Source: Deltaproteobacteria bacterium (lineage in GTDB: Bacteria; Desulfobacterota; Desulfuromonadia; Geobacterales; Pseudopelobacteraceae). From it: DNA of 64,000 nucleotides. The notes under the pieces are model-generated. The model was given only the letters and a program-made list of their open reading frames with translations. It did not search any database and was not told where the DNA came from. The stretch lies in the NCBI GenBank assembly GCA_021780495.1, contig JAJXYO010000027.1, positions 62,001 through 126,000 on the forward strand, in the 5' to 3' direction. This document shows positions 47,101 through 51,132 of the stretch, piece after piece. The position numbers were made by a program, and so were the translations under genes. Positions within the stretch are counted from its first letter, which is position 1. Every line of letters begins with the position of its first letter.

Positions 47101-47430
47101 TTTCTCCAGGATCCCCATCTCGGCCACGGACACCGCCGTGTTCAAGGCGGTCTGCCCCCCCAGGGTCGGCAGAATGGCATCAGGCCGCTCCTTCTCGATG
47201 ATCTTGGCCAGGATTTCGGGCGTGACCGGTTCGATGTAGGTGCGATCGGCAAAATCCGGGTCGGTCATGATGGTGGCGGGGTTGCTGTTCAGCAGCACCA
47301 CCTCATAGCCCTCTTCCTTCAAGGCCTTGCAGGCCTGGGTGCCGGAATAATCAAATTCGCAGGCCTGGCCGATAACGATCGGGCCGGCTCCGATGATGAG
47401 TATTTTCTTGATGTCGGTTCTTTTCGGCAT
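44191..47430 (-). CDS. carB: Carbamoyl-phosphate synthase large subunit
   Basis: A 1079-residue full-length CarB. Two homologous ATP-grasp halves are visible, starting [21 protein letters not shown] and [19 protein letters not shown]. The C-terminal MGS-like regulatory domain ([18 protein letters not shown] onward) ends the protein. It makes carbamoyl phosphate from bicarbonate, ATP and CarA-derived ammonia for pyrimidines and arginine. AAGGAG lies 6 bases before the ATG. carA is about 4.6 kb upstream on the same strand, separated by an accessory island, and a hairpin-repeat leader precedes carB. Confidence 0.97.
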
Positions 47431-47504
47431 TATTTCTCCTTAGTAAGTTAGAAGTTGTTTTCTGCGCTTTTTTAGTACGGTAAAAAATATTTATGCGGTT
47501 TCTT

Positions 47505-47595
47505 CGCAAAAATATTTTTGTGAGCGTACTTATTCCGGTAACCGGGGCTGGCAGAAAATAACTTCGTTAACGCACTTATCCTGTCTAGCAGGGCT
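47505..47595 (-). repeat. Tandem ~45-bp hairpin repeats in the carB leader
   Basis: Two 45-base units (47505-47549 and 47551-47595) share 28 of 45 positions. On the minus strand each reads AGCCCyG, a 4-5 base loop, CrGGAATAAGT or CAGGATAAGT, then a TTAACGAA-like linker and an AT-rich end. The upstream unit is about 80% identical to one in the ilvC leader. Each AGCCC/GG arm pair can form a short stem. A 14-base palindrome (CAAAAATATTTTTG) ends the carB-proximal unit. Confidence 0.65.
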
Positions 47596-47631
47596 ATGGT
47601 TGCAGGGAGTTTCCTCCAATTTTTCTCTCTA

Positions 47632-48063
47632 TCAGGCAAAGCGTCTGACAATGACTCCGATAAAATCTTCCAGATCCTTGATGCCATTCGTAGCAATATC
47701 GTAGACCTGATTCAAATCCAGTTTGGCATACTCATGCACCACAAGATTGCGAAACCCGACGGCATTTATCAGTTTTTCCTGCAGCTCAACTGAAATAACA
47801 GAACGCCCACTCAGAAGATAAAAGAACTCATTCATGCTACCAGCCATGCCATAACCTTCATCACTGACAATGTGAGCTGCCATGTCAACACAACCCTGAA
47901 TAGCCTGCATGAGGTTAAAAAGCACAATATCCTGGCTGTCTTCGTCAACCATGAACTCAGCAATGGTAGCCGAACGTTTTTCTTTCACCTTGCCAAGACA
48001 TTTTTCAATCGTGGTCACTTTGGCCACTAGAATATTCCGATCAACCACGAGATTCACCTCCAT
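47632..48063 (-). CDS. hepT: HepT-type HEPN ribonuclease toxin (second pair)
   Basis: A 143-residue all-helical HEPN (DUF86) protein with the catalytic R-x4-H-x-Y motif in GFRNLVVHEYA. In characterised HepT/MntA systems this toxin cleaves RNA and is silenced when MntA adds AMP to the motif Tyr. It overlaps the end of the mntA gene. The ATG at 48063 or a GTG at 48048, which has GGAGG 7 bases upstream, could be the start. It lies 200 bases before carB on the same strand. Confidence 0.85.
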   Translation of the reverse strand: MEVNLVVDRNILVAKVTTIEKCLGKVKEKRSATIAEFMVDEDSQDIVLFNLMQAIQGCVDMAAHIVSDEGYGMAGSMNEFFYLLSGRSVISVELQEKLINAVGFRNLVVHEYAKLDLNQVYDIATNGIKDLEDFIGVIVRRFA

Positions 48064-48463
48064 AACGGGAGCGCAAACTGTTCAGCCGCATATCGATATA
48101 ATAGGAAAACTCCGCGATAAGCGGCAGTTTGCGACGACGAAAACTCCTCAAAATTTCAGGATTCTGCTGATACACGACTTCTCCCTTGCCAAACACCTGC
48201 CCCAGCACAACCTCTCCGGCGTCATTCATGATGAGCGGATGGATGTCGAGTTGCAATTGCCTCTCCAGCCCGGAGTAATAGGACATCTTCAGACAATAAT
48301 AGTCAGCCGGAAGGATCGTTGCATCCAGCAGAAACGCAACATCCACATCACTTCCCGCCCGTCCCTTGCCTGCGGCGCGGGAGCCAAAGAGATAACAAGC
48401 CACAATCTCAGGGCGAGTGACGCAATAGGTTGCGATATTGTTTTTTAGGTCTTCATTGGTCAT
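48041..48463 (-). CDS. mntA: MntA-type nucleotidyltransferase antitoxin (second pair)
   Basis: A 140-residue minimal nucleotidyltransferase with the motif G-S-x10-D-x-D in YLFGSRAAGKGRAGSDVDVAFLL. Such proteins transfer AMP to HepT and neutralise it. The C-terminal extension (RRRKLPLIAEFSYY) is helical. It overlaps hepT, the usual order for this type VII toxin-antitoxin class. The frameshifted small gene lies about 110 bases upstream. Confidence 0.85.
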   Translation of the reverse strand: MTNEDLKNNIATYCVTRPEIVACYLFGSRAAGKGRAGSDVDVAFLLDATILPADYYCLKMSYYSGLERQLQLDIHPLIMNDAGEVVLGQVFGKGEVVYQQNPEILRSFRRRKLPLIAEFSYYIDMRLNSLRSRYGGESRG

Positions 48464-48571
48464 GCCAGAATATTCCTTGCTATGTCTTGAACAGCTATGG
48501 GCGTGACCGGCGCGGGCTTATAGCGTCCAAGACCAAGCTAGAGTTGGAACCGCTTTTTATCTATTCTCCCC

Positions 48572-48791
48572 TACCGTAGAAGCCAAAATAAATCTTCATC
48601 GATTTTTTTGAACTCATCATTAACAGGAATATTTCGCTTCGAAATTAGGTCGTTTGCTCTGATAAACGCAACCATATATTCTTTGTTCTCGTACAAATTT
48701 CGATTAATTTCAGATCACCCGGATAATCAGCAAGAATCTGTTTTATCTGCTCAAGCCACGTAATAATGCATTTTTCAATTTCCATTTTCAT
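48572..48791 (-). pseudogene. Small unknown gene with a frameshift
   Basis: From the ATG at 48791 the frame reads MKMEIEKCIITWLEQIKQIL and continues to about ADYPGD, then runs on to a stop at 48645. From about 48715 the neighbouring frame carries protein-like sequence (NLYENKEYMVAFIRAND, then VNDEFKKIDEDLFWLLR) ending at 48572. Joining the two gives a helical protein of about 73 residues. I do not recognise it. A single indel near 48705-48720 explains it; a sequencing error is possible. It lies 19 bases after the coiled-coil gene. Confidence 0.5.
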
Positions 48792-48810
48792 CGCATCCCA
48801 AATGGAACAT

Positions 48811-49875
48811 TTATTCTCCCTGCTTCTGCTGCGGAGTCGAGAACACAACCGGCTTTGCAGCCGATCCCTCAACCGCCTTTACTGCAATCGCCTGAACTTG
48901 GACGTAAGATTTTTCCACCTGCTCGCTCAGGCTTGAAATTCGAACTGCCTGATCTTTTACCAGCGACTCAAACGAAGCGATCTTTGATTCAAGGACATTG
49001 CGCTCCCCTTCAAACTCCTTCTGGAGCAGCTCCAGCTTGAATGTAGCCTCCATCTGCACCTTGTCCACCGCCAGCTTAACCTCACGGGCAACCGTGCTTT
49101 CCAGTTCCTTGGGATAAGCGGCAACGCGGGTGCGAAGTTCGGCCAGTTCCTCTTCCTGAAGCGAGATTGACTGTTCACGTTCAGCAAACTCGCGGTCACT
49201 CTGTTCACGACGAAGCGCAATTTCCCGCTCAAGCCGCTCCTTTTTCTCTTCAAGCCCGGCCTTTTCCTTCTCAAAGGCATCCTTAATCGTCTGTTGTTCA
49301 CGCTGAAGGTTGTAATCGTACTCCTCTTTTTCACGGGTACGTTTTTTTGCATCGGCCGTATCCTGCTCTTTTACATCCGCAGTGCGTTGCGCCTTCTCCT
49401 TCAGCCACTCCAGGCGGGTCTCTTCAATTTCGCTGGACAGAGCTTCCTTGCGCTCCGCCATGTCTGCTTCAAACTGTTCCTTTTTGAGGTTCTGAGCCTC
49501 AATCAAAGCGGAAAGCGAAGATGCCGCCTTCTGAATTTCATAGATTTCAGCCAGCTCTTTATCCTTTTCAACAATGGCCTTCTTGAGCGCTTCATAACGC
49601 CCGGATTCCTGCTCCAAACGGTCGGACAGGTTTGTCAAGACCTTGCCAATTTCAGCTTTTAAGCCGCTGATGTTGCTGAGAATAGAATCAGTGGTCAGCC
49701 CATCGGCGACGGCAACAACCTGTTTAACCGCTTTTTCGACAACCTTCTGTTCCGGAGTAGCCTCGCTTTCTCGTTTTTCTTCCAGTTGCGCAAGGAGATC
49801 ATTGTAGGTGTCCAGCATTTCCTGTTTGGTGTTAGTAGTAGAAAGTTTTTTTGCGGTTTTCGGTTGCATAGCCAT
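48811..49875 (-). CDS. Long coiled-coil protein in the mntA-hepT island
   Basis: A 354-residue hydrophilic protein without signal peptide or membrane segment. From about residue 65 to 330 it is nearly unbroken heptad-like helix rich in Glu, Lys, Arg and Gln (for example EKEKAGLEEKKERLEREIAL). Short segments at each end are not coiled coil; the N-terminus is TTNTKQEMLDTYNDLL. It resembles structural or SMC-like filaments but has no ATPase domain. It starts 6 bases after the first hepT stop, and its ribosome site (AAGGGG) lies inside the end of hepT, so it is the third gene of an mntA-hepT operon. Function unknown. Confidence 0.75.
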   Translation of the reverse strand: MAMQPKTAKKLSTTNTKQEMLDTYNDLLAQLEEKRESEATPEQKVVEKAVKQVVAVADGLTTDSILSNISGLKAEIGKVLTNLSDRLEQESGRYEALKKAIVEKDKELAEIYEIQKAASSLSALIEAQNLKKEQFEADMAERKEALSSEIEETRLEWLKEKAQRTADVKEQDTADAKKRTREKEEYDYNLQREQQTIKDAFEKEKAGLEEKKERLEREIALRREQSDREFAEREQSISLQEEELAELRTRVAAYPKELESTVAREVKLAVDKVQMEATFKLELLQKEFEGERNVLESKIASFESLVKDQAVRISSLSEQVEKSYVQVQAIAVKAVEGSAAKPVVFSTPQQKQGE

Positions 49876-49881
49876 AATCCG

Positions 49882-50307
49882 TTACCCCTTCCGACTTATA
49901 AATTGAACGATCGAATCACTGAACTGTTTAAAATCGCTAAGGTGTCTCCGTAATACAAGAATTACTATTTCGGCATCCACTGTTTCGTATTGATGAACTA
50001 CTATATTTCTGAATTTGGCCATTCTTTCCATAATTGCCAACTGTTCTGGTGTAAGTATGAAATTTTCAGCCAGAACCCTAAAGGTGTCCGCATACGTTTC
50101 CGGGGTTCGAAACTCGTTATCGGATATGACATGACTGGCAATATCAGCACAAAGCTCAATCATCATCTGTAGAGTTCGCTCAATAATCCTCTGAACCTTC
50201 CAATCGCTCCGGTATTGATCAACGGTAATAGTTGAATATTCACCTATCTGTTTCTGATATTCAGCAAGAGAAGCAACTTTTCGAAGGATTAGTACGCTAT
50301 CCACCAT
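49882..50307 (-). CDS. hepT: HepT-type HEPN ribonuclease toxin (first pair)
   Basis: A 141-residue DUF86/HEPN protein with the R-x4-H-x-Y motif in KFRNIVVHQYE, preceded by the usual helix IIERTLQMMIELCADIASHVIS. It is the likely RNA-cleaving toxin of the first pair. Its ATG directly follows the mntA stop (TAGATG), so translation is coupled. It differs clearly from the second HepT in the window, so the two pairs are not a recent duplication. Confidence 0.87.
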   Translation of the reverse strand: MVDSVLILRKVASLAEYQKQIGEYSTITVDQYRSDWKVQRIIERTLQMMIELCADIASHVISDNEFRTPETYADTFRVLAENFILTPEQLAIMERMAKFRNIVVHQYETVDAEIVILVLRRHLSDFKQFSDSIVQFISRKG

Positions 50308-50724
50308 CTAGATATACCTCCTGAAAAGAATATCGTGCTCATTACGGCTGAAATCAAAAAACTCCCTCAAGGCGAGCGACTCAAACCTATGTCGAAGAAA
50401 TGGTTGTTTATCAGCAATAAGGCGCTTCTTTCTCAAAATCCTCCCAACCAGACTGATCGGGGCATCGTTCAAAACGACAAGATCTATTTCATCCGTCATT
50501 AATGTATCAGACAACTCGCCTATTATATCAAGTTTTGCCTCTGCTTTATCGGCACAACTATTCAGATATACTGCGATATCTAAATCTGATAAAGGCCGTT
50601 GATTCCCTGTTGACAGTCCACCAAAAATATAGGCGAATAAGATCCGATCATCACATGCCAAGAGCGATTCCAAGAGGGGTATTCGGCTTAAAATATCTGA
50701 TGCCAACGAATTTTGTTTTATCAT
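50308..50724 (-). CDS. mntA: MntA-type nucleotidyltransferase antitoxin (first pair)
   Basis: A 138-residue minimal nucleotidyltransferase. The motif region is YIFGGLSTGNQRPLSDLDIAVYL, keeping the D-x-D metal ligands; the usual GS is GG here. A second acidic strand (DEIDLVVLND) completes the active site. The start ATG lies in the last of five 18-bp repeats, with AGGTGA 6 bases upstream. It probably AMPylates the adjacent HepT. It follows DUF486 on the same strand. Confidence 0.85.
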   Translation of the reverse strand: MIKQNSLASDILSRIPLLESLLACDDRILFAYIFGGLSTGNQRPLSDLDIAVYLNSCADKAEAKLDIIGELSDTLMTDEIDLVVLNDAPISLVGRILRKKRLIADKQPFLRHRFESLALREFFDFSRNEHDILFRRYI

Positions 50725-50808
50725 CTCACGTCACCTTATCATCTCACGTCACCTTATCATCTCACGTCACCTTATCATCTCACGTCACCTTATCATCTCA
50801 CGTCACCT
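50719..50808 (-). repeat. Five perfect 18-bp tandem repeats, each with a ribosome site and ATG
   Basis: Five identical units (50719-50736, 50737-50754, 50755-50772, 50773-50790, 50791-50808) read AGGTGACGTGAGATGATA on the minus strand. Each has AGGTGA 6 bases before an ATG. In the four upstream units the ATG opens the minigene ATG-ATA-AGG-TGA, whose AGG-TGA doubles as the next ribosome site. In the last unit the ATG is the start of mntA. The stop of the DUF486 gene is the TGA of the first unit. Confidence 0.95.
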
Positions 50809-51132
50809 GAAGATAAAAAACACGGCGCCTGCCAGACAGCATCCGGCCCAGAGGTAATTCCAGGTCAGACTGGTTCCCATATAGAACACGGCAAACGGGA
50901 CAAACACACAGAGCGTGATTACCTCCTGGGTAATCTTAAGCTGGGCCAGCGAAAAACCGCCGGCATACCCCATCCGGTTGGCAGGCACCTGGACCAGGTA
51001 CTCGAAAAAGGCGATCCCCCAAGAAACTAGCACGGCAATGAACCAATTGCGGTTGCTCAGATTTTTCAGGTGGGCATACCAGGCAAAGGTCATGAAGACA
51101 TTGGATATGACCAGCAGCACAATTGTTCTCAT
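50803..51132 (-). CDS. DMT family protein (DUF486)
   Basis: A 109-residue membrane protein with four hydrophobic segments and the DUF486 pattern (TFAWYAHLKN, VSWGIAFFEYLVQVPANRMGY, QEVITLCVFVPFAVFYMG). It resembles half of a drug/metabolite transporter. Transport function is unproven. It starts with no gap after the radical SAM gene and ends inside the 18-bp repeat array. Confidence 0.85.
   Translation of the reverse strand: MRTIVLLVISNVFMTFAWYAHLKNLSNRNWFIAVLVSWGIAFFEYLVQVPANRMGYAGGFSLAQLKITQEVITLCVFVPFAVFYMGTSLTWNYLWAGCCLAGAVFFIFR

Follow-up and report, generated by a model that had tools for sequence, protein, structure and literature searches.

Lambda-bar-type minigenes cause peptidyl-tRNA drop-off, an effect that is aggravated when peptidyl-tRNA hydrolase is low. 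The minigenes most prone to drop-off have two codons and end in UAA (summarised in PMC8708949). Minigene mg2 of the axe-txe operon (Kedzierska and Potrykus 2021, PMC8708949) is a single two-codon minigene with a UAA stop, located inside the antitoxin gene and before the toxin. Translational coupling by termination-reinitiation has been described for gene pairs with short intergenic gaps (Huber et al., PMC6728339, PMC10666635). In E. coli, 15 nt of upstream gene is enough for coupling, while coupling at 14 nt is 60% in one pair and below 20% in another, and 80–100% of it is lost at 38 nt (PMC10666635). In Shewanella oneidensis, the MntA-HepT toxin-antitoxin system has MNT and HEPN genes side by side, a HepT RX4HXY motif and a MntA DXD motif within GS-X10-DXD (PMC7641770).

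We analysed a 64,000-nucleotide stretch of DNA (the window) that carries, immediately before an mntA-hepT pair, five tandem copies of a gene junction with four minigenes between them. The axe-txe minigene is the closest known system: both are very short open reading frames with their own Shine-Dalgarno (SD) sequence, just upstream of a toxin-antitoxin gene, and in both the SD sequences overlap other signals. Unlike mg2, the array has four tandem three-codon minigenes that end in UGA and precede the antitoxin, and its origin differs as well. With lambda bar (ATG-ATA-stop) the array minigenes share the ATG-ATA opening of a very short open reading frame, but they carry AGG before the stop, and their ATA is a copy of the second codon of mntA. 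Compared to the characterized termination-reinitiation pairs, the single-copy junction of related genomes is the plain case, whereas the array would need five reinitiation events in succession. The open-licence literature searched yielded no description of minigenes arrayed in tandem.

Anatomy of the array and its flanking genes

In the array, the 18-bp unit AGGTGACGTGAGATGATA is repeated five times without a mismatch on the minus strand (50719..50808), as read from the sequence and detected by TRF (period 18, 5.1 copies, 100% match, score 182). The second-ranked array within the 64-kb window scores only 68. We estimated the genome background for tandem arrays from a 355-kb sample of the same genome, where the 18-bp array again ranks top (runner-up score 109) and is the only one, among the arrays inspected, located at a translation start.

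Upstream on the minus strand is a DUF486 (DMT_6) membrane protein gene (50803..51132; Pfam PF04342, E = 2.5e-45), whose orthologues were found in 43 of the 57 genomes searched, its own genome included. Its last codon and stop (AGG TGA; stop at 50805-50803) form the opening six bases of unit 1, and the mntA start (50724) lies in unit 5. Between them, units 1 to 4 each present an ATG with an SD sequence at a working distance and a stop a few codons on, giving four minus-strand minigenes that read ATG ATA AGG TGA (Met-Ile-Arg-stop): minigene 1 at 50785..50796, minigene 2 at 50767..50778, minigene 3 at 50749..50760 and minigene 4 at 50731..50742, the last supplying the AGGTGA that serves as the mntA ribosome site. 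The AGGTGA ribosome site of each minigene overlaps the preceding stop, and the remaining two reading frames likewise close inside each unit. The sequence and the TRF result thus bear out a first-pass annotation of this DNA that had described five perfect repeats between DUF486 and mntA-hepT, four minigenes, and genes that end and begin in the outer units. That annotation had also stressed the common frame of all stops and starts; the common frame is present, but termination-reinitiation does not need it and the single-copy junction of a related genome (G053) already has it. On the plus strand, where one frame of the array is open, a 102-aa open reading frame (50502-50810) would encode SSHVTL repeats at its array end, with no sign of being a gene.

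The downstream genes form an mntA-hepT pair, of which the toxin has the class I motif. On the minus strand, mntA (50308..50724; Pfam Polbeta/NTP_transf_2) encodes an MNT-family nucleotidyltransferase antitoxin, and hepT (49882..50307; Pfam PF01934, E = 1.4e-31) encodes a HEPN RNase toxin with the RX4HXY motif RNIVVHQY. HepT matches its Shewanella counterpart with an E-value of 7e-19, and MntA matches Shewanella MntA (5yep_A) weakly (E = 8e-4). Where the S. oneidensis protein has GS-X10-DXD, MntA here has GG-X10-DXD, and the GG was seen in every orthologue. Between species, dN is 0.15–0.27 for mntA (dS at least 1.7 or saturated) and 0.08–0.19 for hepT, values that indicate purifying selection on both genes. 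The mntA stop TAG directly abuts the hepT ATG, while the two genes overlap as TGATG in the closest relatives.

Assuming the usual 16S tail rather than the host genome's own, AGGTGA pairs with the anti-SD at −7.4 kcal/mol, compared to −9.2 kcal/mol for the AGGAGG of hepT; it lies 6 nt from the ATG that AGGTGA serves. The claim that each AGGTGA is a ribosome site gains support from the conservation of the DUF486 end. DUF486 terminates in AGG-TGA at all six loci where mntA comes next (own genome included) and at none of the 19 where carB comes next (P = 6e-6, a generous value because the loci share ancestry). Retention of AGG-TGA only where mntA follows therefore supports its function as the mntA SD sequence.

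Comparison with relatives and origin of the array

We compared the DUF486-mntA junction across the order. Five other genomes (G053, G038, G016, G024 and G072) have a single unit each, with stop-to-start gaps of 4–6 nt, and the G053 junction, TTCAGGTGACGTGAGATGATC (TTC AGG TGA CGT GAG ATG ATC), shares 17 of 18 bases with the repeat unit. In a genome of the same genus (G002), mntA-hepT is gone and a single-copy scar, TTCAGGTGAAATGAAATGATAAAACAA, remains; in context it reads TTCAGGTGA AATGAA ATGATAAAACAA, and behind this one unit come a ribbon-helix-helix gene and a PIN-like gene. Two or more adjacent units occur in only 1 of the 141 genomes of the order, which is the array's own genome, and the array is absent from the other 140. 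A comparison of repeat number, which the first-pass annotation had proposed for related strains, yields between species one copy elsewhere, scar included, and five here.

The comparison indicates an ancestral junction with one copy of AGG-TGA-CGTGAG-ATG-ATN, in which the end of DUF486 doubles as the mntA SD sequence; the orthologous MntA proteins begin MIK. Because the relatives are single-copy and adjacent units occur in one genome, the array is derived and lineage-specific. Its expansion appears recent, since the five copies show no differences, which fits a young repeat. The minigene itself is a by-product, because AGG-TGA is the conserved DUF486 end and ATG-ATA is the mntA start. Likewise, the likeness to lambda bar arose because duplication copied the second codon of mntA (ATA) together with the last codon of DUF486 (AGG); as read from these sequences, the resemblance is inherited and not designed. 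We consider it probable that an ordinary gene junction was recently amplified in tandem in this lineage alone, and that the array is the product. By the same comparison, it is probably a copying accident, the expansion being young and possibly neutral. The copy number would most likely have come from replication slippage or template switching, with no particular dose being selected. Against amplification without selection, five intact copies could have been kept by selection.

We also scanned the genome_contigs collection (84,980 species) with a slightly narrower form of the array pattern and obtained two unrelated single matches. One lies inside an apparent Pedobacter coding region. The other, in a Eubacteriales MAG (L058), has two units with the same base at just 4 of 8 free positions, and duplication is thus not shown. 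That site (L058:3598-3631) holds a single Met-Lys-Arg-stop minigene, and the AGGTGA of this minigene serves a signal-peptide-like gene as ribosome site; it is an independent single-unit likeness. An AGGAG version of the pattern matched none of the 141 genomes of the order, the narrower pattern had no match in viral contigs, and no viral or phage relative of the locus was found. Plasmids and plasmid-like records gave weak partial matches only, mostly to the DUF486 part (Sinorhizobium, Aeromonas and Paroceanicella).

Predicted translational effect and competing explanations

We examined several levels at which the array could act. The array's RNA folds no better than shuffled sequences (z = −0.26); Rfam has no family at the array, its one sub-threshold match lying outside it and attributable to chance; and no promoter-like site was found between 49500 and 52500. 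With no RNA structure, Rfam family or promoter-like site, translation is the remaining level of action.

The single-copy junction is probably coupled, because its 6-nt gap falls within the range for reinitiation in E. coli (PMC10666635). Every step of the array has the same 6-nt distance from stop to next ATG, well inside the roughly 20 nt expected of termination-reinitiation. The stop of DUF486 now lies 78 nt from the mntA start, against 6 nt at the single-copy junction, and our analysis suggests that translational coupling has probably been weakened. Each of the four extra ATGs runs from ATG-ATA, a copy of the mntA start, into AGG-TGA, a copy of the DUF486 end, and stops. In the proposed mechanism, a ribosome that leaves DUF486 could reinitiate at the first ATG, 6 nt away, and would arrive at mntA only after four further rounds. 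Because five reinitiation steps would be needed, most coupled delivery to mntA would be lost. Instead, translation of mntA would depend chiefly on ribosomes that initiate afresh at its own ribosome site, the fifth, while the four sites before it would mildly compete with it or feed it. With its own strong SD sequence directly behind mntA, hepT would probably be less affected than mntA, or change in step with it.

We employed a simple chain model to calculate these effects. At step efficiencies of 0.2–0.6, coupled delivery is predicted to fall to 0.16–13% of the single-copy value, while delivery by fresh initiation would increase by 1.25- to 2.3-fold. At a step efficiency near 0.95, 81% of coupling would be kept and de novo delivery would increase by 4.5-fold, and the sign of the net effect is thus not fixed. 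Within the model, the sign depends on the DUF486 flux and the de novo initiation rate.

The same calculation bears on a ribosome-loading platform, in which tandem SD sequences bind ribosomes and either protect the mRNA or raise initiation, so that mntA is expressed above the single-copy level. The modelled gain in de novo delivery at step efficiencies of 0.2–0.6 permits this, and ribosome occupancy of minigenes protects mRNA in cases cited in PMC8708949. However, the lost DUF486 coupling would offset the gain unless de novo initiation reaches at least 0.4–0.8 of the DUF486 flux over that range, and we regard a platform as unlikely. The first-pass annotation had instead proposed a device that tunes the antitoxin or senses Ile/Arg tRNA. 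Stated fully, a selected rheostat would use minigene number to set antitoxin output by successive termination and reinitiation, with drop-off at ATA and AGG linking that output to tRNA supply or peptidyl-tRNA hydrolase. The array's anatomy fits such a device exactly, AGG (4.6 per 1000) and ATA (9.3 per 1000) are minority codons in the window, and the axe-txe minigene alters toxin translation in cis by up to about 7-fold (PMC8708949). Yet a purpose-built device is not supported: the array is absent from all 140 other genomes of the order searched, no relative having conserved it, and the minigene codons were inherited from the flanking genes; moreover, three codons ending in UGA are linked to weaker effects (PMC8708949), and hepT lies directly downstream. 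With hepT adjoining mntA and provided with a stronger SD sequence of its own, an effect of the array need not be confined to the antitoxin. Overall, a selected rheostat seems quite unlikely. It is also rather improbable that the array acts as a dose-setter, in which antitoxin translation would drop or rise by a constant factor with every further 18-bp unit of a chain of overlapping minigenes, and slippage would heritably reset the toxin-antitoxin balance.

Slippage could also make the array a hypermutable contingency locus, so that mntA expression would differ from cell to cell within a population. Tracts like these five perfect units do slip, and both reading frames stay intact whatever the number of units, but 18-bp units slip less than short ones and no relative has even two copies, making such a locus very doubtful. 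An assembly artefact, or a DNA-level repeat such as an operator array, is the least credible explanation and highly improbable. The genome is a draft in 68 contigs, but the array's 91 bp are shorter than the usual short read, the repeat lies between two genes that run close together in one direction, with no promoter-like site nearby, and the gene junction fully accounts for its bases.

A recent amplification of the junction would provide a natural comparison of one copy with five, the two states differing in nothing but how many stop/SD/start junctions lie between two coupled genes. If the units are counted reinitiation steps, the efficiency of successive reinitiation would become directly measurable, and the locus would show how simple slippage can create minigenes and rewire operon coupling. 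If the array is neutral, it is a clear example of minigene-like sequences arising without selection for a minigene.

Genomic context

Unlike the S. oneidensis system (PMC7641770), the mntA-hepT pair here sits inside a pyrimidine-gene cluster. The interval between DUF486 and carB (47430-50724) holds mntA-hepT, a 354-aa coiled-coil-like protein and a second MNT-HEPN pair (48463-47632). In most relatives, DUF486 is followed directly by carB, and G002 has its RHH/PIN-like pair at the same place. From this gene order, the DUF486-carB gap appears to be a place within the cluster where toxin-antitoxin modules insert. At one locus (L052, in G077), the same coiled-coil-like protein (MAERKTTKKLTTTNTKQEMLDAYNDLL) comes directly after DUF486, without mntA-hepT.
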